Below are positions 3,411-43,788 of a DNA stretch of 64,000 nucleotides, one piece after another. The position numbers were made by a program, and so were the translations under genes. The notes beneath the pieces are model-generated. The model worked only from the letters and a program-made list of their open reading frames with translations, searched no databases and was not told where the DNA came from. The stretch is from an uncultured Flavobacteriaceae bacterium (GTDB lineage Bacteria > Bacteroidota > Bacteroidia > Flavobacteriales > Flavobacteriaceae). Each line of letters begins with the position of its first letter. Positions within the stretch are counted from its first letter, which is position 1. The stretch spans positions 1-64,000 of the forward strand of contig CALIJE010000040.1 of assembly GCA_938017825.1 (NCBI GenBank). Direction: 5' to 3'.

Positions 3411-3507
3411 TGCTAATGGTTTTTACAAAAATAGCAATTATCTACTGCCAACGCCCTGCCCCTACTAGGTCTTGTATCCGTCTCTATTTTTATTACTTTC
3501 GCTTTGC

Positions 3508-4740
3508 ATGAATAAACTTGGAGTTATCGAGCTTTTCGCCGGGGTCGGCGGTTTCCGATTGGGGTTGGAAAAAACGAATGCTTTCGAGGTTATTTGGAGC
3601 AACCAATGGGAGCCCAGCACCAAAACCCAACATGCCTCTGCGGTATATGAGGCGCGGTTTGGTTCTATGAACCATAGTAATGAGGATATAGCAGAGGTTC
3701 CTACGGCCGCAATCCCAGATGCCGATGTCTTGGTTGGTGGGTTTCCTTGTCAGGATTACTCGGTCGCCACTACACTACAAAACTCAAAAGGTCTTTTAGG
3801 GAAAAAGGGGGTGTTGTGGTGGAGCATTCACAGAATTCTTTCGGAAAAAACAAATAAGCCCAAATATCTCATTCTTGAAAACGTTGATCGTTTGTTGAAG
3901 TCTCCTTCTACCCAACGAGGACGCGATTTCGCCATCATCTTAAAGAGCTTGGATGAGCTAGGCTATGCGGTGGAGTGGCGTGTAATCAATGCGGCGGACT
4001 ATGGAATGGCCCAACGCCGGAGAAGGGTTTTTATCATGGGTTACCACAAAAGCTCTCCGTTATATAGATCTCTAAATGGAACGGACAAAAAAGATTGGGT
4101 ACTTTCTTCCGGTGTATTTGCAAAGGCTCTTCCCCTAGTTGTTTCTTCGGGAAAAGCATCGCAGATCAATATTACCCAAGATTTAGTAGTGCTCTCCAAC
4201 AGCTTCAATAAAGAGGAGAAACTGTCCCCTTTCCAAAATTCAGGTGTTTTTTGTAACGGCAAAGCCGTCACTATAAAAACAATTCCCTCATATGAAGGTC
4301 CTAAAATGACGTTAGGAGACGTGCTCCAAAATGGGGCCGTCGCTGAAGAATTTTATATTTTAGAAAAAGACCAACACAAATGGAATTATTTAAAAGGCGC
4401 AAAGAAGGAGACCCGCAAGGCGAAAAACGGCTACGAATACACCTATAGTGAAGGCCGCATGGTCTTCCCAGATGCTTTGGACAACGCTTCAAGAACTATA
4501 ATTACGGGGGAAGGTGGGCCGAGCGCTTCGCGATTCAAACATGTAATTCAAAGTGCAACAGGACTTCGTAGGCTGACCCCTATAGAATTGGAGCGGCTAA
4601 ATATGTTCCCTGATAATCATACCCAACTTCAAGGAATAAGCAATACCAAGCGGGCCTTTTTTATGGGTAATGCGCTTGTGATCGGGGTGGTCGAAAAAAT
4701 TGCTGCTCAACTTATAAAACAGATCGAAAACATTAGTTGA
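3508..4740 (+). CDS. DNA (cytosine-5-)-methyltransferase
   Basis: ELFAGVGGFRLGLE (motif I), GGFPCQDYSVA (motif IV PCQ), ENVDRLLKSP (motif VI), RRRRVFIMGY (motif VIII), RRLTPIELERLNMFPD and MGNALVIGVV (motifs IX/X). The start at 3508 is preferred over 3472. Confidence 0.93.
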   Translation: MNKLGVIELFAGVGGFRLGLEKTNAFEVIWSNQWEPSTKTQHASAVYEARFGSMNHSNEDIAEVPTAAIPDADVLVGGFPCQDYSVATTLQNSKGLLGKKGVLWWSIHRILSEKTNKPKYLILENVDRLLKSPSTQRGRDFAIILKSLDELGYAVEWRVINAADYGMAQRRRRVFIMGYHKSSPLYRSLNGTDKKDWVLSSGVFAKALPLVVSSGKASQINITQDLVVLSNSFNKEEKLSPFQNSGVFCNGKAVTIKTIPSYEGPKMTLGDVLQNGAVAEEFYILEKDQHKWNYLKGAKKETRKAKNGYEYTYSEGRMVFPDALDNASRTIITGEGGPSASRFKHVIQSATGLRRLTPIELERLNMFPDNHTQLQGISNTKRAFFMGNALVIGVVEKIAAQLIKQIENIS

Positions 4741-5994: not shown

Positions 5995-6426
5995 TTATGA
6001 ACAAGGAATTTTTTCAACGCGCCGCTCATGGCGCCCACCTTCAAAGCTCGTGCTTAAAAAAACCTTTACCATTTCTAGGGCTTGAGGCAGCGAAATAAAA
6101 CGAGCAGGTAAACTTAGAATATTGGCATCATTATGTTCTCTACCCAGTGCAACGAGCTCTTTGCTCCAACAAAGGGCACAACGTACTTTCGAATGTTTGT
6201 TCGCTGTCATGGATGCCCCATTACCACTACCACAAATTATGATACCAAAGTTTACCTTTCCTTCGTCCACATCATTTGCCACAGGATGAACAAAATCTGG
6301 ATAATCAACACTATCGGTGCCATCGGTGCCATAGTTTGCCACTTCTATTTGCATTGACTTTAATAAACCTACAATCGCTAGCTTATATTCAGTACCGGCA
6401 TGGTCGTTGCCTATGGCTATTTTCAT
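5995..6426 (-). CDS. rpiB: Ribose 5-phosphate isomerase B
   Basis: MKIAIGNDHAGTEYK, GIIICGSGNGASMTANKH, HNDANILSLPARF. Confidence 0.93.
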   Translation of the reverse strand: MKIAIGNDHAGTEYKLAIVGLLKSMQIEVANYGTDGTDSVDYPDFVHPVANDVDEGKVNFGIIICGSGNGASMTANKHSKVRCALCWSKELVALGREHNDANILSLPARFISLPQALEMVKVFLSTSFEGGRHERRVEKIPCS

Positions 6427-6540
6427 CTTGGGTTTTCAATTGGTTAGTGGCACAAAAGTACGAATAGTTGTGTGTTTGCAACAAAAAAGCATCCGTTGAC
6501 AACATAAATTACGTATTTCCTAAGCAGACTTGTTAATTAG

Positions 6541-6960
6541 CTATTCATAAAATAGGTTTTTACTGTTCATAAGCTCATCACAAAAAAGCATTTCAAAACT
6601 TTGTTTTTTAATCTAAATAGTGCTTTACGAAACCTATTCATATTTCACTAATTTATTTTTTACAATTTTACAGTAAGATATCAGCGCTTCTTGTAGAGTA
6701 ATGAACATATATTTTAATAAAAGTTATATGAATTTTATGTTCATATCTGTTATGAAGATACGTTTATAAGAACTATAACCATCTGATTTTTAAAAACCTT
6801 CCTTTTGTAAAAAATGTCAACAAAATCTTTTTGTTGTTCATAGCAACTAAAGTCATGTTTTTTTATATCCATTATCAACACACAATCATAAACAACATTT
6901 TTGATTTAATTTATTTAAAAAATAAAATGATTATATAATATATGTTCATAACATAAACCA
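6541..6960. other. Candidate replication origin or regulatory region: AT-rich intergenic region with repeated TGTTCATA(A)
   Basis: Exact TGTTCATA at 6565-region (6564-6571), 6738-6745, 6836-6843 and 6943-6950; variant at 6701; TTATCAACA at 6873-6881; long A/T tract 6901-6940. Read directly; function is inferred. Confidence 0.4.
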
Positions 6961-6995
6961 TAACGAAACTAAATACCGCCTCAAATTATAATTCG

Positions 6996-7003
6996 TAATT
7001 TTG
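6996..7003 (+). promoter_or_regulatory. Bacteroidetes-type -7 promoter element (TANNTTTG) for rnr
   Basis: TAATTTTG located 20 nt before the rnr ATG. Confidence 0.5.
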
Positions 7004-7022
7004 GGCAACTAATGAAGATTTA

Positions 7023-9212
7023 ATGTCGAAGAAAAAAAAGAAAGCAAAAAACCATAGAAAAAACGAAATTACACGGGGTATTTTTACCGTACTTGAAAAA
7101 GAACCGAAAAAAACGTTCAACTATAAGCAAATTGCAGCAAAAATAGGCGTTACCGACGCACACGATAGAAATACCCTAATCAAGAGATTAGTCAAATTAA
7201 AAGAAGCGAAACGCATTGCCGAAACCGATCGAGGCCAGTATAAGGCGCTAGCATCTACAAAAACATACCATACAGGCACTGTTGATATTACAGGAAGAGG
7301 CAATGCCTATATTATCATTGAAGGGATGGACGATGATGTGTTTGTGCCGTTCAATAAGCTTAAAAAAGCGTTCCATAAAGACACTGTTGAAGTTTATATT
7401 TTCCCTAAAAGAAATGGGAAAAAATTAGAAGGTGAGATTACTAGTATTGTAGCGCGAAACAAGAGCAGCTTCGTTGGTATCGTAGATATGCAAAAGACCT
7501 TCGCTTTTGTACGTCCTTCTGATTTTAGAATGTATACCGATATTTTTGTCCCAAAGGAAAAAATAGGATCTGCTGAAGATGGTGATAAGGTCATCGTTGA
7601 AGTAGAAGAATGGCCAGATAAGGCAGAATCGCCTTTCGGACATATTACAGAGGTTTTAGGTAAACCAGGGGAACATGACACTGAAATTCATTCTATTTTG
7701 GCGGAATATGGGCTTCCTTATACCTTTCCTTTGGAGGTGGAACGTTATGCTAATGAGTTAGATACTAGTATTAAGGCTGCTGAAATTGCTAAACGAAGGG
7801 ACATGCGTGATGTTCTGACATTTACAATAGATCCAAAAGATGCCAAAGATTTTGACGATGCACTCTCTTATGAGGTTTTGGAAAATGGAAATTTTGAAAT
7901 CGGGATTCATATCGCGGATGTTTCCCATTATGTAAGGCCGGATACAATTTTAGATGAAGAGGCGTACAATAGGGCTACCTCGGTTTATTTGGTAGACCGA
8001 GTCGTGCCGATGCTTCCGGAAGTACTTTCAAACAACGCCTGTTCGTTGAGACCACATGAAGAAAAGTACACATTTTCAGCTGTATTTGAATTGAATGATC
8101 GGGCTGAATTGAAAAATCAATGGTTTGGGCGCACGGTTATAAATAGCAACGAGCGCTTTGCGTATGAAGAGGCACAATATATTATTGAGAACAAGAATGG
8201 AAATATCCCTAAAGAAATTTCTATTCGAGAAGGTGCATATTCGGTTGCTGAAGAAGTTGTCGAGGCTACCTTGAAAATGGATGAATTAGCCAAAATTATG
8301 CGCCAAAAACGAATGCAGCAGGGTGCAATTTCATTCGATTCAGTAGAGGTTCGCTTTAATTTAAATGACAAAAACGAGCCTGAAAGTGTCTATTTTAAGG
8401 AATCAAAGGACGCAAATAAGTTGATTGAGGAGTTTATGCTTCTTGCAAACCGAAAGGTGGCCGAATATATTGGAAAGCAGAAACCAAAGAAAACGTTCGT
8501 GTATCGCATACATGACGATCCTAATGAAGATAAATTACAAGCGCTTAACGGGATTATTTCCCGTTTTGGGCACAAACTTGACTTTAAGGATAAAAAATCC
8601 ATTAGCTCATCGCTAAACAAGCTTCTGGCCGATGTAAAAGGTCAAAAAGAACAAAATTTGGTAGATACTTTGGCAATTCGTAGCATGAGCAAGGCAATTT
8701 ATACAACTGAGAACATAGGCCACTACGGTTTGGCGTTCGATTATTATTCTCACTTTACCTCTCCAATACGCCGTTATCCCGATGTTATGGTACATCGTTT
8801 ACTTCAACATTACCTAGATGACGGAAAATCAGCAAAGGAACAGTTATATGAGGAAAAATGTAAGCATTCCTCGGACATGGAAAACCTTGCAGCGAATGCA
8901 GAACGGGATTCGGTTAAATACATGCAGATCAAATTTATGCAAGATCACCAAGACAGGGAATTCGTAGGGGTAATTTCAGGAGTGACCGAATGGGGAATTT
9001 ATGTGGAGATTATAGAGAATAAGTGTGAGGGGATGGTTCGTATTCGAGATATAAAAGGGGATTATTATATCTTTGATGAAAAGGAGTATGCCATAATAGG
9101 CGAACGAACTAAAACCAAGTACACCTTAGGAGACGAGGTTGTGGTTATGGTAAAAAGTACTGATTTGATTAAGCGCCATTTGGATTTTTCTTTGATTGGT
9201 AGGAGCGAATAG
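7023..9212 (+). CDS. rnr: Ribonuclease R
   Basis: RNB catalytic motif TIDPKDAKDFDDALS; YSHFTSPIRRYPDVMVHRLL; C-terminal S1 domain. Confidence 0.96.
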   Translation: MSKKKKKAKNHRKNEITRGIFTVLEKEPKKTFNYKQIAAKIGVTDAHDRNTLIKRLVKLKEAKRIAETDRGQYKALASTKTYHTGTVDITGRGNAYIIIEGMDDDVFVPFNKLKKAFHKDTVEVYIFPKRNGKKLEGEITSIVARNKSSFVGIVDMQKTFAFVRPSDFRMYTDIFVPKEKIGSAEDGDKVIVEVEEWPDKAESPFGHITEVLGKPGEHDTEIHSILAEYGLPYTFPLEVERYANELDTSIKAAEIAKRRDMRDVLTFTIDPKDAKDFDDALSYEVLENGNFEIGIHIADVSHYVRPDTILDEEAYNRATSVYLVDRVVPMLPEVLSNNACSLRPHEEKYTFSAVFELNDRAELKNQWFGRTVINSNERFAYEEAQYIIENKNGNIPKEISIREGAYSVAEEVVEATLKMDELAKIMRQKRMQQGAISFDSVEVRFNLNDKNEPESVYFKESKDANKLIEEFMLLANRKVAEYIGKQKPKKTFVYRIHDDPNEDKLQALNGIISRFGHKLDFKDKKSISSSLNKLLADVKGQKEQNLVDTLAIRSMSKAIYTTENIGHYGLAFDYYSHFTSPIRRYPDVMVHRLLQHYLDDGKSAKEQLYEEKCKHSSDMENLAANAERDSVKYMQIKFMQDHQDREFVGVISGVTEWGIYVEIIENKCEGMVRIRDIKGDYYIFDEKEYAIIGERTKTKYTLGDEVVVMVKSTDLIKRHLDFSLIGRSE

Positions 9213-11320: not shown

Positions 11321-12274
11321 TTAATACGTACACCTGCAATTACTCAAGCCCTGGAAGAGATCTACACCAACGGTAACAACATGTGTCCCGGTGCTGTAGG
11401 TTAGTATTTCATTCAGGATAATTTGATAGGAGTAACCAAAGTAAAATTTACCCTTTTTAAGACCCGCAAAAGGAGCGATGTATAATGGGTTTCCGATTTG
11501 ATCGTTTAAGAAACGGTAATTTATACCAGCATAGTAATAGTCTTCAAAATCATACCACCGCAGCTTAACATTCAAATCGGTTTCTGAGCGACCATCACTT
11601 TCAAAAATCTTAAATAGGACCGATGGCTCAATTTCCAAATCACTGTTTTTATTTTTTCTATAGCGGTAACCGGTGTACGCATAATAGTTTCGAAGTGCAT
11701 TTGGCTCATCTGCATCAAAAGTGAGGTTCCTAGGGTCCTTGCCCAATAAGTTCGATGCATTTGCGCTGAAGTAGAACTTCCCGGCTCGGTACATGGCTCC
11801 GATATCGAAATTATGGTTCGTGGTTTGTCTATTGTTGATTACATTGGGGTCAAGGTTTCCGCCGATGAACTCATCAATATCAATTCGAAACTGATTAAAA
11901 TTATAAGAGAGTCCAAATGAAAGAAATTCGTCATCATATCGATCAATGGTCAGGTGGTGCGCAAACGAAACTCTTGCACCTTGCTGCTTGGTGTACCCGT
12001 TTTTATCGTTGTACAAAAACAATCCCAGACCTGATTGCTCTCCAATACGCATATCGGCGGCCAAAGATTGTGTCTGTGGTGCGTCTTTGATACCCACCCA
12101 TTGGGTTAAGCCGTTAAGCCTAATTTTAACATGATCCCCTATTCCGGCATATACAGGCGAGAGCACAAAAGGGTTGTCCGCCAGATATTGGCTTAGCTGG
12201 GGTGAATTCAATTCTTGTGCTCTCGAAACAAGAGCGCCAAGAAGCAAAATCAAGATTGTTAGTTTATTGCGCAT
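11321..12274 (-). CDS. PorP/SprF family type IX secretion system membrane protein
   Basis: SQYLADNPFVLSPVYAGIGDHVKIRLNGLTQWVGIKDAPQTQSLAADM; beta-barrel OMP pattern; directly downstream of the giant adhesin on the same strand. Confidence 0.92.
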   Translation of the reverse strand: MRNKLTILILLLGALVSRAQELNSPQLSQYLADNPFVLSPVYAGIGDHVKIRLNGLTQWVGIKDAPQTQSLAADMRIGEQSGLGLFLYNDKNGYTKQQGARVSFAHHLTIDRYDDEFLSFGLSYNFNQFRIDIDEFIGGNLDPNVINNRQTTNHNFDIGAMYRAGKFYFSANASNLLGKDPRNLTFDADEPNALRNYYAYTGYRYRKNKNSDLEIEPSVLFKIFESDGRSETDLNVKLRWYDFEDYYYAGINYRFLNDQIGNPLYIAPFAGLKKGKFYFGYSYQIILNEILTYSTGTHVVTVGVDLFQGLSNCRCTY

Positions 12275-12291
12275 TTCGGACTCATTATGGT

Positions 12292-15200
12292 TTATCGATA
12301 TAGGGTAAAATGCCCTACAAATTCACGCTCGTCGTTTTCTCCGTTCAATTGTATTACATACCAGTAATCACCAGTAGGTAATTCTTTGCTGTTGTAGAGG
12401 CCATCCCAACCGGGAGAATTCACAGATTGTTCAGAAACCACTCTACCATAACGATCGTAAATTCTAATTAGTATTTGGGGCCAAGCCTCAATATTTTGAG
12501 GTCTCCACAGATCATTCTGTCCATCACCATCTGGGGTAAAGAAATTAGGAATTTCAATGTCTACAAATTCCATTTCGATACTTTGAATGTCTTCACAGCC
12601 GTTTTGATCGATTACACGTACGACATAGGTGCCAGACTGATTAATTCTATAGGTATTATCCTCACCATTGTTAACATCATTAAAGTAGAAGGTGTATGGG
12701 GCCAAGCCATCAGTTGCAATTGCCGTTATTTCATTAAGATTGTTGTTTTCTAAGGCCAAATTCACCGGTAGGAAATCCTCTATGGTAAAGGGATAGGTTA
12801 CACTACACATATCATAGAAAATGGTTATCGAATGATCTCCTGGGGCTAAGTTTGCAAAGTTGTTGCCTAGCCTTGCGTTATTAATATCATCAGAATCCAT
12901 GGCAAATAACACATCATCGCTCAAAGATTCGTCTTCCAAAGTAATGTTTAGATAGTTCATCACCCGGTTGCTATCGCATTCGTACACTGGCTCAATTGTC
13001 GCAGTTAAATTAGGACCTGAAGAGACCTCAGCTATTGCAGCTATCGGCTCGCAGCCACTATCTCTTACCCTTACTTCATAAAATCCGGCAGCCAAATTAT
13101 CAAATACAAAACCATCGGTTACATCAATGTAATCAGCATCATTGGTTGAATTTAAGGACGCCTGATATGGTGGGGTACCATTGGTTATATTTAAAGTAAT
13201 GGTTCCGTTTGCATCACCTTCGCAGAATTCAGCTGTTGTTGTTGTCACCAATTCTAGAGGAACCGGTTCGAATATGGTAATTGTAAATTCTTCAAAACAA
13301 CCATTTGTGTCCTGGGCCAATACCCTGTATACCGTACCGGCAACTGAACCCTCAAGGTCTGTTATGATATAGGTGTCTTCGGTCATTGCTTCAGAAATAC
13401 GACGTAGTTCAACCCCATTGGGATCTGTGATGGCGTACTGATATGATCCGGTACCACCTCCATTATTGGTAATTGTTATTGTGCCATCATCTTCTCCTGG
13501 GCAGCTTACCATTGTTGGTGTTGCGTCGAAGTCCACTGCTGGTAATTCCTCAATTGTGACTGGCTTTGTAACCGGTGTACAGTCTCCGCTGACCACACTG
13601 ATATAGTAGGTGCCCGCTGGCAAATTGTTAAATTGCCCGGTGGCTTGTGCATGGCCCACACCATTCACGTTATCGGTTAATGCAATATCGCGATACAACG
13701 AGTACTGGTAATTACCCATACCAAAAGAAGCTTCAGCAAATACACTACCTGTGCTCTCACCGTTACAAGCAATATCAACTTTAGTAGGGTCAGATAGCTC
13801 TAAAGGAACAATAGGGTCTTCAGTAATTGCATTTGATATAGTAGAAGCACAATCAAAAGAATCTCTTACATAGTATTGATAGGTTCCGGCGGGCACATTG
13901 AATAGATGAGTGTTTCCACCAGACATTGCAGTATAAGTTATACCATCAAGACTATATGAATAAGGCGCTGTACCGCCACTTGCCGTTAATAACAATTCTG
14001 CGTCGTTGGCGCATGTTAATGCGCTTTCAAGTGTTAATTGCGCAACGACTTGTGTTGGTTCGGTAATGGTTACTTGGTTTGTTTCGAAATCACAATTCCA
14101 ACCATCTGTAACCGTAATACTGTAGATTCCAGCGCCAAGGCCATTAAAGGTATCCGATACTTGTTCTCCGGAGGTAAATTCAATTACTGCTCCAGCTTCA
14201 TCATAATAGTTTAGTTGATATTCATATGAACCACTACCATTCAAGACATTAACCGCGGTAACAGAGCCGTTTGTATCACCAATGCATTGCAGATTGGTAA
14301 TCAAAGGAATGGCATCAGCAACTACAGGAATTGGCCGAACTAGAATATTAGGATAATCATTTGTAATTGTACAGGTGTTCGCATCTACTACCTCTACTCT
14401 GTAATCCCCCTCTGCAAGACCAGAAAAAACGTGCGCCTGTACATCGGTTACCGTTGGATATACCTGACCAGTGGTAATATTGGTTAACGTAATATCATAA
14501 GGCGCATAACCTCCGTTAGGCACAACGGATAGTTCTCCTTGATCATTGTCACAAGTTACATTGGCTCTAGGCTCGGTTAGCTCAGTTAACGGCAAGTCTG
14601 GCGAGATGATAGTAAAAACATTTGTAGTCGTACTACATTCCGGTGCTGCTGTTTCGGTTATGGTTATGTAATAGTTGCCCCCAGACAAACCAGATATGGT
14701 TTGAACATATGGACTACCGCTAGCAGTATCAGATCCAGTTAGGACACTTGCGCCAGCTTGGGTGAAAACCTCATAGTCAAATGTACCGTTGTAACCGAAT
14801 ATTGAAAGCTCTGCAGAACCGTTGCTATCTCCAAAACAAATTACAGGTGTTAAGGCATCTGCTCTGGCCTCAATTAGGTCATAAGGCGCAATGTCATACA
14901 CTGTCGTGTCAACGAAACAACCAGTATCAGTGTCTGTTACCCGGAAGGTGTAGCCGCCCACTGCCGTAAGTTCAAAAGTTGCCGTAGTGGCTGTAGTCGC
15001 TATTTGAGAACCATTGGGATTTCCTAAAGGCAATAGCTCAAAACTATAGTTATGTGGGTTTCCATCATCCGTTACCGTAATCAACACTTCTTCTGGGCCC
15101 GCACAAGATATTGGAGAGACTTGGCTTACGGCAGCAGAAAATGTATTGATGGGATCAATTGCTTGTGTAGGCAATGTAAACGGGCATCCATTTGCGTCTC

Positions 15201-18200
15201 TGATAGCAATATCATAATTACCAGGTGAAGAGACGGTGTGTGTGAACACGTTTCCGCCAGTTGGTAGATATGCACCGCCATTTATACTATAGAAATAGTC
15301 AGCTGTACCTGTCCCTGCATCGATGGTGACCTGTATGCTTGCGGATAATTGTGAATTGTTAGGGTCACAAGCAAAAGGAGTAACATCTGTAATCGATGCA
15401 TTGAGAGCACTTGGCTGAACTATGACGACTTGGTCAGTAGCCACGCAATTCCTATTTGACGTAACCGTGATATCGTATGTACCTGCAGGCAGACCAGTAA
15501 ATAGGTTCGAACTTTGGCTTGTTGTTGTCGTGCCATCGGAAATTTCAAAAACATATGGAGGATTATCATTAACACCAGTACTGGTAGGCTCCATATTAAT
15601 AGTTATGGTACCGTCAGTATTCCCAAAACAACTAACATGTGTTCTTGATGTCTGAAGCAAGGTTACAGGTGTTGGTTCTTCAAGTGCAATAGAAGCATTT
15701 GCAAAACAATTTGGAGCACCTAAATTATTGTCTGTTATTCTTATGATATAGTCGCCAAAAGGTACCCCAGTAAATTGATTTCCTGTTGGTGCTATTCCTG
15801 TATTTGAGAAATCAGGCAGCAGCAGTTCGGCAGTAAATGCACCCGAACCACCTCCGGCCGTAAACTCTAATACACCATCATTGGCATTACATGTTGGCTG
15901 GCTTACAACAAATGCACTAAGTGTTAGCTCTGGCTCAATGGTAATATTTTCTGTTTCCCCGCACCCGTTGGCATCACGTATTTCCACAGAATGGGCACCA
16001 GCAATCAATCCGGTAATGGAATATGGGAAACTAGGCACACTTTGGAAGGCATTTCCGTCGATACTCAAGGTATATGGTGCCACACCGACATCTGCAGCAT
16101 CTAAGGAAACAATAATACCAAAACTACCCTCTTCGGCACACTCATCATCAATAACTAAAGAGATATCGGGCGTGGTATCGGTTTCAATGGTTACCGCCAA
16201 TGGTGAATCTATGATACAATTATTGGCATCTCTTACATAGATATCCCAATTCAGACTTACTGTCGGATCTAATTCAACAGTTTCATCAAAAGGGAATGTG
16301 GCAGGTACCCCAGAACCACTTATTGAAGCTCCATAGGCATATGGTGCCGTTCCCCCAGTTGCCTGGACGGTAACTATGGCGTTGGCTTCGTTGCAATTCG
16401 CGTTGACATTATTCAAAAGTTGAATAGCCAAAGGATCTGGCGCATCAATAGTAACACTATTAGATGTTCCTACGCATTCTGGGAATGCGGTTTCTGTAAT
16501 TTGAACAATATAAATACCAGCGGGAAGCGTAGTAGCTACGTTGAAAACATATGGGTCTGCAGTAGCATTGTCAGAACCTGAAGCCCCGGCAACAAATGCG
16601 CCGTTTGCATCGAGCACCTGATAATTAAAAGTACCGGTATAACCGCTAATGGCAACCTGTATTTCGCCATCAGCACTATCACTACAAGACGCATCGCTTG
16701 TTACTGCGGCCGCTACATTTATTAGATCGAATGGCGCAATAACGTGCTCTACGATGACCGAACAGTTAGTAACTGTATCTAAAATCTCATAAGAATAAGT
16801 ACCTGGTTGGGTTAAGATAATATTCAAAGGATCGGCTATTACATTTCGATTTGGCAATTCTAAGTAATTATATGTTCCAGAGCCGTTGGCGGCAATTATT
16901 TCAATTAGTTCTTCCCCATTAACACAATCAATAACTTGATTTTGATTTATAACTGCTGTAACATCTTGCCTTACCGGTATAGGTAAAACCAAAGTTGCCT
17001 CACAACCATTGGAATCTCGTACGGTTATATTTACATCTGGCGAACCAAAGGGCACCTGTAAGGTGTTCGACGTTTGAAAGTTGCTTCCATTGTCAAAACT
17101 ATATACATATGGTGATGTGCCAGAAGGATTACCAAGACCATCATTATTTACGGTCACGGTAATTGTGCTAGCAGTATCATCGCAACTAAAAGGAGTAGCT
17201 GCTGCGCTAATATCTAATTGAGAAGGCTCATTTACATCAACCGATCTTGTGTCTAAACATCCCTTATCGGATAGTACGGTAACATTATAAGTTCCTTGCG
17301 TTAGTCCATTAAATACATTTGATGCCTGCGTAGTTGCACCCCCATCAAGACTATATAAATAAGGGATATCAATATTTCCAGGATCTAAGCTAACGGTTAT
17401 TGTTCCGTTATTTCCACCAAAACAACTAACCTCTGTAGCACTTAAACTAAATGTTGGTATAGAAGGTGCGGGCAAACTTATATTCAAAGGAAAAGTACAA
17501 TTCGTAGTAACATCTTCCACTTCGAACGAATAAGAAACAGAGTGAGTTAAACCAGCAAACACGCCTGTTGTGTTCGTGGGGCCTGCCGGACTTGTTTGTG
17601 TGTATGAGTAATTACCTGAACCGCCGCTAGCCGTAACAGTAACTTCTCCTGAATTTGCAGGGTTGCAATTTTCATCAGCACTAATATTAGCGATGGCATT
17701 TAGGGGTGGGTATATTGTAATATTTTCTGTTTCACCACAACCATTTACATCCAAAATTGCGACGGAATGAGCTCCCGAACTTAAATTTGAGACAGTCAAC
17801 ACATCGCCTGCAAGCACTAAGCCGGTAGCAGATTGTGGTGCACCACCGTCAATACGAATTGCATGTGGCACAACGCCGGCAACATCCAAGGTAATATCTA
17901 TACTATAGCCACCTTCATCAGCAATACATTGATTGTTGATCGTAAGACTTATTTCTGGAGATGGGTCTGTTGGCACATTTACCGGTGCTGCCTGTATACA
18001 ATTAAAATCATCTTTTACATACACGATATAATCACCACCCTCAACATTGAATGAGTTTATTGAGCTCCCAGCCCAGGTGGCAGTGGTAGGTGCTGGATCG
18101 GTACTCAAAGCGATTTGGTACTCATATGGTGCTCTACCAAATTGAGCAGAAGCAGAAACTTGGCCGGCGTTTAGATTACAATTGTCGTTTTTAATTAGCG

Positions 18201-21200
18201 AAGCATTGGCAACTAATTGCACAGCAGCCTCTTCGATAGTAAACTCTTGTGTTGCTAAAGGACACCCGTCATATGTTCCACCGTTTTCGGTAAGTAAAAT
18301 GTAGTATACTCCAGGGGCCAATGGGCCTAAATCCGTAACAGAAACACCGGTACCCACAGCAGGTGGGTTAACGGCGGTCGATCCACTTATACCTGTTGTA
18401 ATGTTTGACTGAAAATTAAATATTTCATAAGAAACACTTGTGGCGTCACTTGCATAGTTGTCAATCGAGAAGTCGACGGCGCCATCGGCAATACCCGTAC
18501 AAGTAACATTTGAAACCTCATCAATTGACCATGTAAGGTTCGAAGGAGTATCTATTGGGGCATCTGCAGTTTCGAAATAGTAACATCTCGTTGCGTTGTC
18601 AAAGACCACAAACGTATAAGTTGTACCAGGAGTCAATCCTGTGATGGTTGCCGTATCACCATTAACAACATCTGGCCCCTGATAATTGTTCGAATAGGGT
18701 GGCGAAAAGAATTCCAAAACCGCAAATTCATAATCGTTGCTAGTAAAAGCAGAAGATACTGTAACTATCGCAGTTCCTCCAAGAGCACAATCTACCGTTG
18801 CAGTACTTACATCAATGTCTAAATCATCTGGTGGAGATGCAATTATGGCATTACTGGTAACCGAACAGCCATTGGCGTCAATAACTTCTACAAAGTAGAT
18901 GCCGAAATTTAAAATCGTAAATGTATGATCTCTATTTCCAGGAGAAGTGTTGTATACCTGGGTCGGCATCCCATTATTTGCAGATAGGTGATAGCTATAC
19001 TCTACCGTTCCTCCAGCTACACTAGTTACACTAATGGTGCCGGGAATAGTATTATCAGTTGGATCGGCGCCAGCTGAATCACATTGAATATCTGTTAAAC
19101 TAATCGAGAATGTAATTGGATCTGGCTCTCCTATAATTATAGTATCTATATCTGTACATGATTTTGCATCGGTGACGGTAACTTCATAGGTTCCAGCAGG
19201 AAGACCAGATGTCTGGGTTCCGTAGTTTGTTCCAGTTGTGGTATTCAGTACCGCAATTGTAAATGGCGCAACACCTTGTGTTGGATCAAGATTCACCTGA
19301 ATAGTTGCGCTACTGTCACCATTACACAGAACGTCTGATGTTTGTACCAAGGATGAAATTACAGGGCTTTGAATCGGTTCAACTATAACCTGAGAAATAA
19401 CGGAGCAAGTTCTATTATCCGTAACTCTAAAGTCATAGGTTCCGGCAACAGCAGTAGGGTAGGAAAATGAATTGCCCACTATTGCCGTGGTCGGCGACCA
19501 TGTTGTTCCGCCATCCGTACTAACTTCATAAGTTGCATACGGAGTGTAACCGCTTGAAATTGATACATCGATTACCGCGTCTGGAGAAACTGTACAGTCC
19601 AAGGCCTTCGTTAAAATTGCGCTAGCAATCAATTGGGGCTCAATGGTTTCATTTATCACGTTGGTTAAACAACCGTAAGCATCGGTAACTTGAATGTCAT
19701 AGGTGCCCGGCACTAAGTTAGAAATGGTAAACGTATTTCCGGGAATAGTGGTTTGTCCTCCTCCGTTGATGCTATAGGTATAAGGAGCAACACCATCTGT
19801 TATATCAATTACCAAGGAGGCCTGGTCTGTGCCATCATAACAGAAATCAGATGCCGCATTTAATGCTATAGATGGTGTTTCAGCCGGATCGATCGTCAAA
19901 GGCTTGCTGACAATACAACCACCAGAATCTCTGACATAAATAGTATACGTACCATCAGAAACATTCGTAAATACATTGCTGTTCTGATACGGGTAGATTA
20001 TCGCAGGGCCTACGGTATTTTCCAATTGATACTCATAACTTCCCCATCCGTCAGTTGCGGTTACCGTAATAGTGGAATTTTGAACGCATGTTACAGGGCT
20101 ATCCGAAAAGGTAAAATCCAATGCGGCAGGCGGATTATCAACGGTCACAGAAGTTGTAGCTATACAATTGGTGGTATCGTCGGTTATGGTAATCACATAG
20201 GTGTCCGCAGCAAGGCCAGTTACTGCAATAGGAGTAGTAGTATTTATATTCGCTTGAGATTGGACAAGTACATTTGAACTGTTTTCAACGGTATAGCTAA
20301 ACGTACTAGAAAAGGCACTTGCCGTAAATGATATTTCCCCATCAGTATCGCCAAAACAGGTAACGTTGGACACTAATTGAGAATTCGCTTCAATTTGAGG
20401 AATGTCGGCAATTGTATAATTCTCTTGTACAGTACAGCCCTTTGCATCTGTGATTTGAAAGGTATATGTGCCCGGCGCCAAGCCTGTAAAAACATTGTTG
20501 TTCGCATTGTTGATAACACTACCGGATGGTGCGATTATTTCATAAACAAAAGGCGCATTTCCATCTACAACCGAAACGGTTACATCTGAAGTAATAGCAG
20601 GACAAGTTGGGTTTGTTTGCGTGAAAGTAAGATCAGAAGGCTCATTTAGGGGGTCAATTACTAAGGCCGGAGTTTGTACAGTACAACCATTTGAATCACG
20701 AATTGTAATGGTATAGTTGCCAGCAACTATTCCAGTACTAAAAGTGTCAGAAGTTTGAAAATTAACACCATCAATACTAAATGTATAGCCAGGAGTTCCA
20801 CCAGAGTAGTTAATCGCGCGCAGTGTTGCCGAAGTATTGTCACAACGGTATTCTTGAACAACATCAATGGTTCCAGGAAGTATTGGGTTAGGCGCGGTCA
20901 ATGTAACATCATCAGCAACCGTACATCCTTTCGAGTCAGTTACCGTATAGCTGTATGTACCTGCACTTAAGCCAGCGTAGGTTGTTTGAGTTGAGGGAGC
21001 GCTTCCATCGAAAACGATTTGGTATGGCGGCAATCCACCAGAAATCTGCAATTCAATAGCTCCATCAGAACTACTATCGCATAGGGGATTCGTGGGCGCT
21101 TCAACTACTATAGGTGGGCTATTGGGGGTGATTACAATTTGGTTTGTCGTAATTGTACAGTTTTCACTATCGGTAATTACAAATTCATACGTTCCTGCAG

Positions 21201-24200
21201 TTGTTGTGAAATAGGAGAACGGAGTGCTTGGCACAGCTGAACTAGCCTGAATACTGGCGCCGTCTCTAATTACTTCATAGGTAAAACTGGGATTCCCACC
21301 CGTTATGCTGATTCTGATTTCCGCATCAGGTGATGCACTACAGTCTAAATCTTTAATCAAATTCGCTGCCGCCGTCATTGTCGGGAAGACATCAATACTG
21401 GCGCTTGCCGTACAATTTTTACCATCAACAACTTCTACAATATAACTTCCGGGCCCCAGTCCGGTAAACGTAGTGTTGGTCTGATAAGCGCCACCGTTTA
21501 CTCGATATTGAAAAGGAGCTTCTCCCCCTGAAATTACATTAGCCGTTAATGTTAACCCATTTGAGCTATCATAGCATAAGCTATTGGCGGTAACCTCTAA
21601 TACTGGTGCAATTGCTGGTGTTAGCGAAAATGTTTGTGTTACCTCACAGCCTCCCGCATCTCGCACTGTAACTGTATAATTTCCTGAGGTGTCAGTTAGT
21701 CCTGTAAATGAATTTGTAGGTTGTGGCCCAACAACCCCTCCGGCGGGATCCTCTAGTTCGTATTCGTACCCACCCCACCCATCGGAAGCCGTAATAATTA
21801 CAGAACCAGGATTTGTTCCCGTGGCAGAACAAGAGATATCAGTAACATCTAAATTAGAAATGACCAATGCAGCTGTAGGCGAGGCAATGGTTACCTCTGT
21901 AATAGCTGTACAATTCGTATCAGAGTCTGTAACGGTTATCTGATAAACACCAGCAGCAAGCCCCGTCAAAGGTATTGTTGTAGAAGTTTCTCCAATACCA
22001 GAAAAAGTAGCCGGCCCACTTATTGTGTAATCATATGTATTTGCAAAATTGCCAACGCTAAAGGTTGCGCCACCGTCAGTGAGACCAAAACAGCTAATGT
22101 TGTTATCTAGTTGACCTGTTACGGTTATGGGGACAACATTGTCAATGGTATAACTTTCCTGGATCACACATCCCTTGTCATCGGTAACCTGAAAAGTATA
22201 GGTTCCAGGTGACAAGCCTGCAAAAACATTATTGTTCCCATTGGCCAAAACATCTCCGGCAGGTGCTATAATTTCATAAACAAAAGGTGCAGTACCGTCA
22301 ACTATTGACACGGTCACATCTGAAGTCAGCGCCGGACACAACGGTTGGGTAGAAACAAATGTTAGGTCGCTTGGTTCATTGCGCGGATCTATGGTTATCG
22401 TATTGGTTTGGATAGAGCACCCAGCGGTATCACGCACAGTAATGGTATAATCTCCGTTTGTAAGTCCAGAAAAAGTTTCAGCTCCTGGTCCTGATACAAA
22501 ATTTACCCCATTAATACTATATTCATAGGGTGCAGTTCCTCCAGTAACATTTTGTGCCTGAATAATTCCATCTTGAATACAGGTATAATCTTGCACCAAA
22601 ATAGCATCTGCCGTCAAAGCATTGGTTGGCGAACCAATAGTATGATAAAAAGGGTAGTTACATGAGGCACTTCCTTTACGCATATTTACGATTATCGTAT
22701 AATCCCCATTGGCAAGCCCTGGAAAAAAGCCTGAAGAATTAAAAGCAATGGCATCTGTGAAAAGGAAATTCTCCGCCAAAGCATCTTCTAGCGTAATATT
22801 GAAATCATAGAGGTAATAGGTTAGCTGATAACCTCCATCATCTGCAAGATTCATTTGAATTGCCCCACTGGAATCACCAAAACAAGCAACGTCTGTTATA
22901 GTAGCCGCATTAAAGGTTGCAGGGGGTCGAAATTCGATTGTTACCGTGTTTGAAATCGCACTACAGTTGTTACGATCGACAACAACAAAGGTGTAGTCAC
23001 CAGGATTAAGGATATCGAAGATTACACTGGTTTGATATTCGGAAGCCGGAATATCACCAACCGTGGGATAGGAAGTTAGGGTCACCCCGTTTTCGTCAAC
23101 ATAAGTCCAAATGGCATAAACGTGTGGGGTTTTCCCTCCCTCGGAGTCTAGCAAAATATTACCTTCCTTACAAGTAACATGTTGGGAAACCCTGGCAGTA
23201 ACCTCGAGATCATTTTCATCTACTATGGTGATTTGTTCTGAGTATTCACAACCATCATCTGTTCGCGCAATTGCGATATAGTTTCCTGGATTAAGGTCTT
23301 CGAAAGTAAAATTGTTGTCAGGTTGAACCGTCTCACTGTCTAAGAGTGTTCCTTGTCCTGCATTTGACCCATCATCAATTCGTATTTCATATTCATAATT
23401 TGGTTCGGCATTGAGCACTTGAATATTTACTGATCCAAGACCGCTACAACCGGCATTTGTAACATTAACATTATAGCTCACATCTCTATCAAGAATTCCT
23501 ATTTCAGGAGTTCTAAAAACACAAGCCCCAGGAATAGGAGCCCCTGCTGCATCCAATTGAGTAACTTGAACGACATATCCTCCGTTTTCACCAGCACCAA
23601 AATCGAAGCTAGGACCATTGTTTGCACTAAACGGAATGATTACGGCCTCGGTGTCAGAATCTACTAATTGATACCCATAGCTGCTTCCTAAATTGGTAAT
23701 TGTAATGTTCCCATCTGAAGTACAAATAATGTCTTCTTTTGTATACTGAATGTCTAGTAAATTTTGAAAAACATTAAAATAGAACCTGCTGATACAACCG
23801 TTTAGATAGGTAACCTCAAGCCTATATTTTCCTGCGCTGCCAACTGTAAAGTTGTTTCCAGACCCCACTTCATTCCAAGTGCAGGCCAGGTTTTTATTTG
23901 CACAATCGTCAGCTGATTCATCACAACTGGCTTCATCCAATAATTCCCATGAAAGACTTTGGGCATCAACAATATTTACTTGCAATTGTTTGGTGTCTCC
24001 TAAGCCACAAAGAAAGAGCTTTAGCAATTCGTCTCCGTCTATTGAACAGGTTACAATTTCACCAGCCAAATCATTAGTTGGGTCGGTATCTCCATTAACC
24101 TCATTGTAAAATGCGATAATTGGATCAGGAATTGTTCCTGATCCAAAGGGTTCAACTCTTATTATTTCTTTAAAACCCTTACAAGGATCCGCTACAATTT

Positions 24201-27151: not shown

Positions 27152-29302
27152 TTAGGCAACCAGACCGGGTTGCACTCGCATGATCCACATCTTGTCATCG
27201 TAGGAGTCGTTGATTTTGGAGTAATAGGAAATAAGAGCGTTGTTCCAAGATTCATGACGTTTAAGGTAAACGTACCTCCAGTTGTTTTCCGGATTAACGA
27301 AATAGCTGGCACTAAGTCCGTAAGAATTCAAAGTCTTTACAAAACGTTTGGCGTTTGCAGGATTGGCGAATACATTGGCAATAATATAGTAACCAGATCC
27401 GACCCCGTCCAACTTGAATATTTTTCCTGCGGGGATGGGTGAGCTTATTTGGTCTTGAGCAACTGAGTTTCGCTTCTCTGCAGTAGTATTATACTGATTG
27501 GCTTTTTTCTGTATTTTGTTTACATTGCTGGCGTAAGCTTCATTGCTATAGCGGTTATCTACATTCATGATCCATTTTGCACCATCATAATTACCATCTA
27601 AATTACTATTGTAGGCAGAGGCGGCGTCCTCCCATGTATCATGTCGTTCTAGGTAAACATATTTTAGACCGTTGTTTGGATTGTCGATATAGTCAGAAGC
27701 AAATCCTTGATTATTGAGGTCGCGCATAAACTTGTCCATATACTTACCACCTTTATATACGTTCGCTACAATGTAGTAACCATTTTCGACACCATTTAGG
27801 TTGTCGAATTTTCTACTTTTAATACCAATGCTGGGACTGGCAACTTTAGCATAGCTCACGCTTCTAGTATTAGTTGACCGAGTGTTATCTTGCCGTGTAG
27901 GTTCTGGAATTGAGTTCACTGGTAGAGAGTTTTCAGGGGCCGAGACCACTTGAGCTGTTCCTGTATCGTACTGGGTACTGTTTGACTGGACATTGGTTGT
28001 ACCGTACGGTATGTTTTTTGAAGTATTTGTATTCGAAGCCAAATCAGCTGTATTGTCACGTCCTGTGGCAAATAACTGTTCGGCCCGTTGCTCCAAGTCT
28101 GGGCGTTGGCCCTTAGTTTCGTTTCGAACCATACGCATTACCATTTCAAAACGGCGTTCCAAGTCTTGCTGACGATTGCTTTCCAGTGAATCTTGGCGGT
28201 ACATTAATTCAGCAAGGATTGCATCATTTTCTGCCAGCTTCTTTTTCAATTCGGCTATTTCATCATTGGGAACGAGGGTGTTAGGCTCCAAGTCTTCATT
28301 ATCCACAAGTTCATCACCACCTTCTTCAAGCATTACGCGGTCTTCCGTAAGGTTTGGTGTGAAAGAATAGGCAAATGAAATTTCATGGGTTGGGCCAAAA
28401 TTCTCAAAGTTGGTTCCGAATCCCTTTTCCATGGTGTAACCCAAAGAAAGTCTTTGGTTGATATTAAAGCCAGCTCCCACCGAGGCGCCATAGAATGTAT
28501 CGTAACCACCTTGCAACCAGCCTAGTTTAGGGAGGTCGAGAATTAGACTTCCACCATAACTTAAATTGTCATCTGTATTATCTATAACTCTTTGGCTGTT
28601 CATACGCACACGGGCCAAAGGCATCAAACGAGCGTTTTCCAAAATACCGGTAGACTTGGTAAAGGGATGGGTATACTGTAAATGCGCCGAATATCCTTTA
28701 TCGGCAAAGTCTGATAATGATTCACTTGTTTTTAGATTATATTCTATCAGATTTTCGGCATAAGCACCAAAATCAAAATTTCCGAATGATAAATTAAAAC
28801 CTGGTTGAAAGGAAAGGATGTTGCTATCCTCGGTTCCATTAAGCACTTCGTCAATAGGGTTTAGGGGATCAAGTGCATTTTGATCAAGCCCCGTACTGTA
28901 ATACGCCAAGTTACCACCAAAAGTAAAATTGCTCTTATCGCTTAGTTTTATTCCATATGCGTAATTGGCCAATACCCCTATGTTGGATACCGGTCCGATT
29001 TTCTGAGAATATAGGCTAAGCCCTAATCCGCTTCTATCCCCAATTCGACCGCTATAGCTCAAGTAATACGTTTGGTCATTGTCCTTAAATTGTACCGATT
29101 GGTTTCTATGTAGTAGATTTACATACGACTTATCTTCTTGTACCGTTGAAAAGGTAGGGTTGATAAGGAAACGATTGAATTTGAGTAAATTTTGAGGAGC
29201 AACTCTATAAGGCAAAGCCGGGTCGCTTTCTTGGGCTTGAACAATGGAAGTGCAAGACAAAAGAACAATTAGGGACAGGGTTATGTATTTTGTAAGCTTC
29301 AT
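27152..29302 (-). CDS. PorP/SprF family membrane protein with coiled-coil linker and two C-terminal SPOR-like repeats
   Basis: LPYRVAPQNLLKFNRFLINPTFSTVQEDKSYVNLLHRNQSVQFKDNDQTYYLSYSGRIG is PorP-like; C-terminus has tandem GYYIVANVYKGG.../GYYIIANVFANP... modules ending in AKWIMNVDN / KMWIMRVQP. Confidence 0.85.
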   Translation of the reverse strand: MKLTKYITLSLIVLLSCTSIVQAQESDPALPYRVAPQNLLKFNRFLINPTFSTVQEDKSYVNLLHRNQSVQFKDNDQTYYLSYSGRIGDRSGLGLSLYSQKIGPVSNIGVLANYAYGIKLSDKSNFTFGGNLAYYSTGLDQNALDPLNPIDEVLNGTEDSNILSFQPGFNLSFGNFDFGAYAENLIEYNLKTSESLSDFADKGYSAHLQYTHPFTKSTGILENARLMPLARVRMNSQRVIDNTDDNLSYGGSLILDLPKLGWLQGGYDTFYGASVGAGFNINQRLSLGYTMEKGFGTNFENFGPTHEISFAYSFTPNLTEDRVMLEEGGDELVDNEDLEPNTLVPNDEIAELKKKLAENDAILAELMYRQDSLESNRQQDLERRFEMVMRMVRNETKGQRPDLEQRAEQLFATGRDNTADLASNTNTSKNIPYGTTNVQSNSTQYDTGTAQVVSAPENSLPVNSIPEPTRQDNTRSTNTRSVSYAKVASPSIGIKSRKFDNLNGVENGYYIVANVYKGGKYMDKFMRDLNNQGFASDYIDNPNNGLKYVYLERHDTWEDAASAYNSNLDGNYDGAKWIMNVDNRYSNEAYASNVNKIQKKANQYNTTAEKRNSVAQDQISSPIPAGKIFKLDGVGSGYYIIANVFANPANAKRFVKTLNSYGLSASYFVNPENNWRYVYLKRHESWNNALISYYSKINDSYDDKMWIMRVQPGLVA

Positions 29303-41001: not shown

Positions 41002-41413
41002 ATTTCACTATGAAATTGATTTTGAACTTATTCATGAACCAAAGTATAAGTTGTGGCTTGAAAAGATAGTCAGGCTAGAAGGAGGAGCTGATTTAAGGCT
41101 CGATTACATCTTTTGTACGGACACGTTTTTGTTAGAGAAAAATCGACAGTTTTTGAATCATGATACTTTTACCGACATCATTACTTTCGATTATTCCGAG
41201 AAAGCCTTAACTGCAGGGGATATTTTTATTTCAATTGACCGCGTGAAAGAAAATTCGGACAAATATAACGTTCGGTTTGAAGAAGAAATATTGCGTGTAA
41301 TGGCGCATGGAGTATTGCATTTGTTAGGATATAATGACAAGACCGAGTCAGAGCAGAATCTGATGAGGCATAAAGAAGATGAAATGATTAAACTGTTCCA
41401 CGTGGAACATTAG
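40994..41413 (+). CDS. ybeY: Endoribonuclease YbeY (rRNA maturation)
   Basis: VMAHGVLHLLGYNDKTESEQNLMRHKEDEM zinc motif H...H; FTDIITFDY. Confidence 0.93.
   Translation: MIEFHYEIDFELIHEPKYKLWLEKIVRLEGGADLRLDYIFCTDTFLLEKNRQFLNHDTFTDIITFDYSEKALTAGDIFISIDRVKENSDKYNVRFEEEILRVMAHGVLHLLGYNDKTESEQNLMRHKEDEMIKLFHVEH
41394..41409. other. parS-like centromere site, perfect 16-bp palindrome
   Basis: TGTTCCACGTGGAACA; lies within the last codons of ybeY (CTG TTC CAC GTG GAA CAT TAG = LFHVEH*). Confidence 0.85.
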
Positions 41414-41427
41414 TTAGGATACTAGGG

Positions 41428-43296
41428 ATGTTTACAAACGAATATGATGTGATTGTTGTGGGTGGTGGCCATGCTGGTGCTGAGGCAGCTGCCGCAGCCG
41501 CGAATATGGGGTCTAAAACCTTGTTGATTACAATGAACTTGCAGACTATTGGTCAAATGTCCTGTAATCCTGCTATGGGCGGAATTGCTAAAGGACAGAT
41601 TGTTCGTGAGATTGATGCCCTTGGCGGTTATAGTGGAATTGTAACGGACAAGTCTGCCATACAGTTCAAAATGCTGAACAAATCAAAAGGTCCGGCTATG
41701 TGGAGTCCTCGTGCACAAAACGATCGCATGCGATTTGCAGAAGAGTGGCGCTTACTTCTCGAAAAGACGCCTAACTGTGATTTTTATCAAGAGATGGTTA
41801 CGGGGATCACGGTTACGAGCGGAAAAGTTAGCGGAGTAAAGACATCATTAGGACTTGAAATTCGCGCCAAGTCCGTAGTACTTACGAATGGCACTTTTCT
41901 GAACGGATTGATTCATATTGGAGAAAAACAGCTCGGTGGGGGTCGAGCGGGGGAAAAGGCCTCTACGGGTATTACGGAGCAATTGCTCGATCTAGGCTTT
42001 GACAGTGGTAGAATGAAGACGGGTACGCCACCAAGAGTGGATGGCCGGTCTTTGGATTATTCTGTAATGATACCACAGCCTGGTGATTCAGAACCGGAGA
42101 AGTTTTCCTATTTGAAGACACCTGTCTTAGAACGGCAGCGCGATTGCTACATGACGCATACAAGTTCCATGGTTCATGAGATGCTTCGTGAAGGCTTTGA
42201 TCGCTCCCCAATGTTTAATGGTCGAATAAAGAGTATCGGCCCTAGATACTGCCCTTCCATAGAGGACAAGATCAATAGATTCGCTGACAAGGATAGCCAT
42301 CAGATTTTTGTAGAACCAGAAGGGTGGGATACGGTTGAGGTGTATGTGAACGGTTTTTCAACCTCTTTGCCAGAGGATGTGCAAGCACGAGCTTTACGTG
42401 CGGTAAAGGGTTTTGAAAAGGTCAAGTTTTTTAGGCCGGGCTATGCAATAGAATATGATTATTTTCCGCCCACCCAACTGAAGCATACGCTTGAGACCAA
42501 ATTGGTTGAAAATCTATATTTCGCAGGTCAAATCAATGGCACTACAGGATATGAGGAAGCGGCCTCCCAAGGACTCATGGCAGGGATTAATGCTCATTTG
42601 AAGGTCAATGAAAAAGAGGCGTTTACGCTGCAGAGGGATGAAGCTTATATTGGTGTGCTTATAGATGATTTGATTACCAAAGGCACAGAGGAGCCGTATC
42701 GGATGTTTACCTCAAGAGCAGAGTATAGGACCTTACTGCGACAAGATAATGCAGACTTAAGATTAACCCCAAAAGGCTATGCGCTAGGTCTGGCCAAAAA
42801 GGAGCGTTTAGAGCGAATGGAGCACAAGCTCAGTAAATCCAATTCCTTTGTTAAGTTTTTTAAGGACACAAGTGTTTTGCCAGCAGATATCAATCCTATT
42901 TTAGAGGAACTAGGCACTTCCTTGGTGAAGCAAAGTGATAGGATGTTCAAAGTGTTTTCAAGGCCACAGGTTACGATGGAGCACATGATGCAATTGAATT
43001 CCGTAGCTGATTTTGTAGAAACGAATGGGCTTGATAGAGAGGTGCGTGAGCAAACTGAAATTCAAGTCAAATATTCTGGTTATATCGCGAAGGAGAAGAA
43101 CAATGCGGATAAGTTGCAGCGATTGGAAAACGTTAAGATCCCTAGAGAATTCGATTATTCAAAATTAAAATCCCTTTCGTACGAAGCGCGGGAAAAATTG
43201 AACGCCATACAGCCAGTGACGATAGCACAGGCGGCTAGGGTCAGTGGTGTAAACCCATCAGATATTAGTGTTTTGCTCGTGTACCTTGGCCGATGA
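41428..43296 (+). CDS. mnmG: tRNA uridine-5-carboxymethylaminomethyl(34) synthesis enzyme MnmG
   Basis: YDVIVVGGGHAGAEAAAAAANMGSKTLLIT, CNPAMGGIAKGQIVREIDALGG, GQINGTTGYEEAASQGL. Confidence 0.97.
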   Translation: MFTNEYDVIVVGGGHAGAEAAAAAANMGSKTLLITMNLQTIGQMSCNPAMGGIAKGQIVREIDALGGYSGIVTDKSAIQFKMLNKSKGPAMWSPRAQNDRMRFAEEWRLLLEKTPNCDFYQEMVTGITVTSGKVSGVKTSLGLEIRAKSVVLTNGTFLNGLIHIGEKQLGGGRAGEKASTGITEQLLDLGFDSGRMKTGTPPRVDGRSLDYSVMIPQPGDSEPEKFSYLKTPVLERQRDCYMTHTSSMVHEMLREGFDRSPMFNGRIKSIGPRYCPSIEDKINRFADKDSHQIFVEPEGWDTVEVYVNGFSTSLPEDVQARALRAVKGFEKVKFFRPGYAIEYDYFPPTQLKHTLETKLVENLYFAGQINGTTGYEEAASQGLMAGINAHLKVNEKEAFTLQRDEAYIGVLIDDLITKGTEEPYRMFTSRAEYRTLLRQDNADLRLTPKGYALGLAKKERLERMEHKLSKSNSFVKFFKDTSVLPADINPILEELGTSLVKQSDRMFKVFSRPQVTMEHMMQLNSVADFVETNGLDREVREQTEIQVKYSGYIAKEKNNADKLQRLENVKIPREFDYSKLKSLSYEAREKLNAIQPVTIAQAARVSGVNPSDISVLLVYLGR

Positions 43297-43772: not shown

Positions 43773-43788
43773 TGTTCCACGTGGAACA
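43773..43788. other. parS-like centromere site, perfect palindrome
   Basis: TGTTCCACGTGGAACA; palindrome extends to ATTGTTCCACGTGGAACAAT at 43771-43790. Confidence 0.85.

Follow-up and report, generated by a model that had tools for sequence, protein, structure and literature searches.

Does the long AT-rich spacer between the divergent rpiB and rnr genes serve as the chromosomal replication origin (oriC) of its host, or does it serve the two genes beside it? We addressed this question in a stretch of 64,000 nucleotides (the window), which lies on contig C40 (97 kb) of a 3.32-Mb assembly in 171 contigs. In a comparison of RNase R, the nearest named relatives were Maribacter, Arenibacter and Zobellia, indicating that the host, a marine bacterium, belongs to the Flavobacteriaceae. 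A preliminary description of this DNA had reported a spacer of about 600 bp, very rich in A and T, from which both flanking genes diverge, and this was confirmed: rpiB on the minus strand and rnr on the plus strand are separated by 596 bp of 25.3% GC, compared with 41.3% for the window (Table 1). Such a divergent rpiB–rnr spacer was found at 95 of the 112 loci with rnr, with a median length of 651 bp and a median GC content of 24%. The dnaA gene is not adjacent to the spacer, its single match in the genome being located on contig C42, and an Rfam scan of the window detected one tRNA and nothing else. Based on the location, conservation, uniqueness, skew switch and parS proximity computed for this spacer, we consider it to be the oriC of the host with a probability of roughly 0.93. 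About 1.3 kb to the left of rpiB, and thus near the putative origin, a Dcm-type cytosine-5 DNA methyltransferase (TIGR00675) is encoded at 3472–4740 on the plus strand.

Table 1. Coordinates of the features discussed (positions in the window; a point in the strand column denotes no strand)
Feature	Position	Strand	Basis or remark
Putative oriC region, AT-rich spacer separating the divergent rpiB and rnr	6427..7022	.	596 bp, 25.3% GC
rpiB, left neighbour	5995..6426	-	ncbifam NF004051 ribose-5-phosphate isomerase B, above cut-off
Extra exact TTATGAACA, rpiB 3' end	5995..6003	+	sequence match
Promoter-like TACTTTTG (TAnnTTTG type), rpiB	6453..6460	-	sequence; relatives keep ACAAANGTACAAAT on + strand; putative function
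Putative DnaA box TTATGAACA, oriC left arm	6564..6572	-	homologous TGTTNATAA in most aligned relatives
Putative degenerate DnaA box TAATGAACA	6699..6707	+	one mismatch; column TTAACA in most relatives
Putative degenerate DnaA box ATATGAACA	6738..6746	-	one mismatch; ATGTTNA column kept in most relatives
Putative half-box GTTNATAA (on + strand), conserved	6762..6769	-	20-spacer alignment
Putative degenerate DnaA box CTATGAACA	6835..6843	-	one mismatch; weakly conserved in relatives
Core origin module (predicted): DnaA box, triplet array, A/T tract, inverted DnaA box	6872..6951	+	unique motif pair; R1 match
Putative DnaA box TTATCAACA, directed into A/T tract	6872..6880	+	TATNAACA identical in all 24 aligned modules
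Array of five A-ending triplets (CAA TCA TAA ACA ACA), DnaA-trio-like	6883..6897	+	relatives' conservation
Candidate DNA unwinding element, 45 bp, 43 A/T (two G)	6898..6942	.	sequence; position and composition conserved
Putative DnaA box TTATGAACA, facing back over A/T tract	6943..6951	-	TGTTNATAA invariant in 24 aligned modules
Promoter-like TAATTTTG, rnr upstream	6996..7003	+	relatives keep TATAATTCGTAATTTT; putative function
rnr (RNase R), right neighbour	7023..9212	+	ncbifam TIGR02063, above cut-off
parS GTTCCACGTGGAAC	41395..41408	.	first of only two in genome
mnmG, between parS sites	41428..43296	+	ncbifam TIGR00136
parS GTTCCACGTGGAAC	43774..43787	.	second of two in genome

The proposal of an origin had started from an octamer, TGTTCATA, reported four times in the spacer. 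Its count was correct, and so were the copies at 6564, 6738 and 6943, with the remaining copy at 6835 rather than 6836. The other elements were likewise present at slightly different places: TTATCAACA occupies 6872–6880 and not 6873–6881, near copies, reported at 6634 and 6701, were located at 6699 and at other places, and the A/T tract extends from 6898 to 6942 instead of from about 6901 to 6940. In 2000 dinucleotide shuffles of the spacer, the expectation for TGTTCATA was 0.06 (maximum 2). Nevertheless, 49% of the shuffles contained some 8-mer with four copies, because the region is AT-rich. By itself the number of repeats is hence weak evidence, leaving conservation and skew to decide. As a conserved motif, TGTTCATA/TTATGAACA was rejected, being rare in relatives and without genome-wide enrichment (50 occurrences of TTATGAACA versus 57 of its reversed control). 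Canonical TTATCCACA boxes were absent from the spacer.

The sequence conserved in the family is TTATNAACA, with 231 occurrences in 91 of 95 relative spacers, of which the fifth position is free (T 106, C 59, A 44 and G 22). Among the top enriched words in the 55 spacers of 350–900 bp was TTATTAACA (56 versus 3.6 expected), and TTATCAACA and CTATTAACA each occurred 31 times in the same set (1.05 and 0.95 expected, respectively). In seven of eight genomes, the densest window of TTATNAACA within 100 kb was the spacer itself. When the spacers of 20 close relatives were aligned, the main sites of the window coincided with conserved columns, the variation being largely confined to the fifth base of the box, indicating that TTATGAACA is the host genome's variant of the putative family box. 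Whether the repeats are kept in relatives had been set beforehand as a check: the literal octamer is mostly absent, and the family form is present, at homologous positions in close relatives. The suggestion of lineage-specific DnaA boxes was thus right in kind, with TTATGAACA as only the version of one host. We regard it as very likely that TTATNAACA elements are DnaA boxes. Within single genomes of the family, the fifth base was more uniform than between genomes (0.43 versus 0.31 in shuffles), which could reflect composition, descent or co-adaptation with DnaA.

The DnaA protein of the host retains the equivalent of Arg399 and carries Ala at the equivalents of Pro423 and Thr435, the change at 435 being common in the class. 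These positions have been given as base contacts (PMC5043019). These substitutions fit a changed box without proving it. A lineage-specific DnaA box is also a feature of epsilonproteobacterial origins, for which a link to changes of the helix-5 contacts, at 435 and 438–439, has been proposed (PMC5043019); there, position 5 is a fixed T, whereas the TTATNAACA box has a free fifth position and A at the sixth.

The right part of the spacer contains a compact module, in which a box is followed by 2 nt, five triplets, a 45-bp A/T tract and an inverted box. The candidate AT-rich unwinding element adjoins the first box, directly after box and array. In the whole genome, the pair TTATNAACA-N45..75-TGTTNATAA occurred once, at 6872–6951, and the reversed control did not occur. 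A profile of the core built from 33 such modules found 92 of the 95 spacers, and in about 100 kb of each of eight genomes, including genomes outside the training set, it ranked the spacer first in every case. A sequence model built from 24 modules (R1) matched the host genome at 6869–6954 (E 3.4e-12), with no second place, and matched 178 of 201 family genomes, mostly at one place each, leaving 23 without a match. The best 30 family loci were all beside rnr and/or rpiB, at 110–534 bp from rnr and/or 428–605 bp from rpiB, and the same 85-base core recurs at the same position across the family. Folding of the core strand was not notable (z −1.3). In genome G131, the listed R1 match is at C1:588467 (E 1.1e-5), far from rnr and parS; as rnr lies there at a contig end, the genuine module may be absent from this assembly or divided.

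In order, number and distance, the triplets are similar to the DnaA-trio known from B. subtilis and H. pylori (PMC8235120), in which a box is likewise followed by a short gap, some five repeats of 3 nt and an A/T tract. Among 59 spacers held out from the profile, the third base of triplets 1 to 5 was A in 100, 100, 93, 93 and 100%, respectively, and 65 of 89 spacers had A at all five third positions. This A agrees with the stringent B. subtilis repeat CTA, of which the third base on the box strand is also A. In contrast, the consensus of the DnaA-trio on the box strand is 5'-YTR/YTD-3', with a middle T reported as highly conserved (PMC8235120), and this T (3'-GAT-5' on the other strand) is not kept in the spacer triplets, of which the middle base was C 190, A 167, T 83 and G 5 times (C or A in 357 of 445). 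The gap of 2 nt between box and repeats also differs, being of mixed composition without a GC-rich motif such as GGCC. Of the marks of a DnaA-trio, about five repeats directly after the DUE-proximal box were found, and neither the middle T nor the GC-rich motif was. We judge the chances about even that the array is a variant DnaA-trio, and the origin core points to an unusual version of a DNA-opening signal. The array after the box is thereby a test of the generality of the DnaA-trio rule, since its repeats retain their position, number and phase but not the base reported to be the most conserved.

Whether replication direction changes at the spacer was asked of the GC skew. The host assembly, a MAG of 87% completeness in 171 contigs, does not allow the full skew curve of its own chromosome to be drawn; the sample consisted of seven complete relatives, with about 100 kb or more on each side of the spacer, plus the window contig. 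Skew was taken at third codon positions (GC3), which lessens the effect of gene direction. To the left of the spacer, the mean GC3 skew stayed between −0.04 and −0.09 in each of the ten 10-kb bins, and to the right it was +0.10, +0.17, +0.08 and +0.13 in bins 1 to 4, respectively. The sign change lies at the spacer, on average exactly at the start of rnr. A skew minimum at the spacer, also set beforehand as a check, was borne out by this switch. Individually, the cumulative GC3 minimum was no more than 6 kb from the start of rnr in five of eight cases, namely G399 (−5.9 kb), G308 (−3.1 kb), G337 (+2.1 kb), G238 (−1.0 kb) and the window contig (−2.5 kb). G375, G145 and G256 had weak skew, with minima elsewhere and no clear GC3 minimum. 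G399, of the same genus as the host, was sampled every 240 kb genome-wide and showed one positive and one negative half, with switches at about 4.31–4.37 Mb (spacer at 4.307 Mb) and about 1.9–2.4 Mb, about half a chromosome apart.

Plain GC skew rose in a step at the start of rnr, from around 0 to +0.07, and was nearly flat for 40 kb leftward, and its cumulative minima in the relatives lay 11–52 kb to the left of the spacer. These minima would suit an origin a few tens of kb to the left of rpiB, with the spacer merely near it. However, they are shallow and explicable by gene orientation (mean coding strand +0.3 just left of the spacer), the restriction to GC3 moves the switch to the spacer, and neither a box cluster nor a module match was found to the left, making such a location extremely unlikely.

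The two parS sites reported at about 35 kb were confirmed, with GTTCCACGTGGAAC occurring exactly twice in the 3.32-Mb assembly, on C40 in both cases and 34–37 kb from the spacer. A search for parS as TGTTTCACGTGAAACA, with one mismatch allowed, gave zero matches, the host genome using GTTCCACGTGGAAC. In the family, parS was present in 391 of 400 genomes, mostly in two copies, and a pair flanking mnmG, with about 1.9–2.4 kb between the sites, is found almost throughout, although some genomes (G375 and G145) have mnmG inverted. In each of the eight genomes examined, mnmG and parS lay to the right of rnr, at a distance of 7–40 kb. Since the two parS sites flank mnmG, oriC might instead be at or next to this gene (about 41–44 kb in the window), with the spacer as a nearby site of DnaA titration or a secondary site. 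In two species descriptions, Ori-Finder 2022 has indeed placed oriC at mnmG, in Mariniflexile litorale (PMC11278836) and Algorimicrobium (PMC12843772), both reports noting agreement with GC skew and one of them a mismatch of dnaA with the skew. Those calls and the spacer share the same chromosome neighbourhood and differ in the marker, the spacer being 7–38 kb from mnmG in the genomes examined. In 8/8 genomes, mnmG lies to the right of rnr at this distance, inside one replichore on its positive-skew side, whereas the sign change is at the spacer, and near mnmG we found no dense box cluster and no match to the core module. An origin at mnmG thus appears exceedingly improbable.

Outside the Flavobacteriaceae, a search of the class with R1 gave weak matches in about 20 of 193 genomes, not far from chance and individually weak (E 4e-6 to 0.007). 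Four of these, from four Bacteroidia families, were directly upstream of nadA, and two of the four were also beside a divergent rpiB. Next to the nadA-side modules, the cumulative GC minimum was 26 bp and 502 bp away in two cases, and mnmG/parS were 2–7 kb away in two; the third out-of-family contig examined, G401, had no clear GC minimum. An rnr-upstream origin throughout the class was rejected, since in the best-matching genomes outside the family rpiB is not divergent upstream of rnr, and the module is at nadA. From these few genomes, rpiB looks like the older neighbour of the putative origin and the rnr side like that of the Flavobacteriaceae. It is possible, at odds slightly short of even, that the Bacteroidia share an ancestral origin beside rpiB (lying upstream of rnr in the Flavobacteriaceae and upstream of nadA in a number of families) and a variant DnaA-trio, in which the third-base A rather than the middle T is fixed and an inverted box stands across the A/T tract. 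If so, the rule by which DnaA reads single strands would differ in the Bacteroidia, in addition to its domain IV contacts.

These modules also bear on the question of gene regulation, the preliminary description having offered a multi-site regulatory region for rnr as its alternative. In that case the repeats would be transcription-factor sites serving rnr and/or rpiB, in keeping with the promoter-like element towards either end of the spacer and with the frequent role of DnaA as a gene regulator. The two elements are, however, about 530 bp apart and near the genes, and they do not need the 400 bp in between. A regulatory role leaves the GC3 switch and the proximity of parS unexplained, and other families have the core module upstream of nadA, with no rnr beside it. 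This alternative, accounting for neither the skew switch nor the rnr-less core at nadA, is very unlikely.

The call of the spacer as oriC, by comparison, is upheld by the GC3 switch, conservation and parS. The spacer combines a sign change of the skew, a cluster of predicted boxes, an AT-rich candidate unwinding element, a module unique in the host genome and conserved in relatives, and a nearby parS pair. Reading DnaA binding, the opening site and the role of the triplets from sequence, we propose the following course of initiation at this oriC. DnaA, encoded on contig C42, would bind an array of TTATNAACA boxes over about 400 bp, from which an oligomer would be guided into the core at 6872–6951, which consists of a box, 2 nt, five triplets, the 45-bp A/T tract and the inverted box. 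The duplex would open in the core, where the helicase would be loaded, and two forks would depart in opposite directions, with rpiB and rnr each transcribed away on the leading strand of its own fork. ParB–parS near mnmG would then segregate the new origins.

Like the DnaA-dependent oriC of the E. coli, B. subtilis and H. pylori type, the spacer is one AT-rich intergenic region located where two replichores meet, with clustered predicted 9-mer boxes, a candidate DUE beside an inward-pointing box and parS nearby. It differs from these in the box TTATNAACA, which has A instead of C as its sixth base and a free fifth, in the inverted box at the distal end of the A/T tract, and in its flanks, which are rpiB and rnr and not dnaA. 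A literature search with rnr/rpiB terms gave no statement of an origin at the rpiB–rnr spacer. The Flavobacteriaceae papers found had placed the origin by software at mnmG or numbered the genome from dnaA, one of them noting a misfit of dnaA with GC skew. The position of the origin would be readable from sequence alone, via a conserved place and a conserved core. A signature that would locate it in about nine of ten family genomes could serve as a ruler for growth-rate estimates (ori/ter), for genome numbering and for autonomous plasmids.

Other parts of the window contain further loci. A single ORF of 4611 aa at 12292–26127 on the minus strand probably encodes, judging by size only, a giant surface protein, and its neighbours at 11321–12274 and 27152–29302 start, by eye, like PorP/SprF-type proteins of type IX secretion. 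An ORF of 1166 aa at 37501–41001 on the plus strand, without an NCBIfam match, has a strongly purine-rich 3' part (AT skew 0.3–0.38), and a similar N-terminus starts an ORF adjoining rpiB in L288, from another family.
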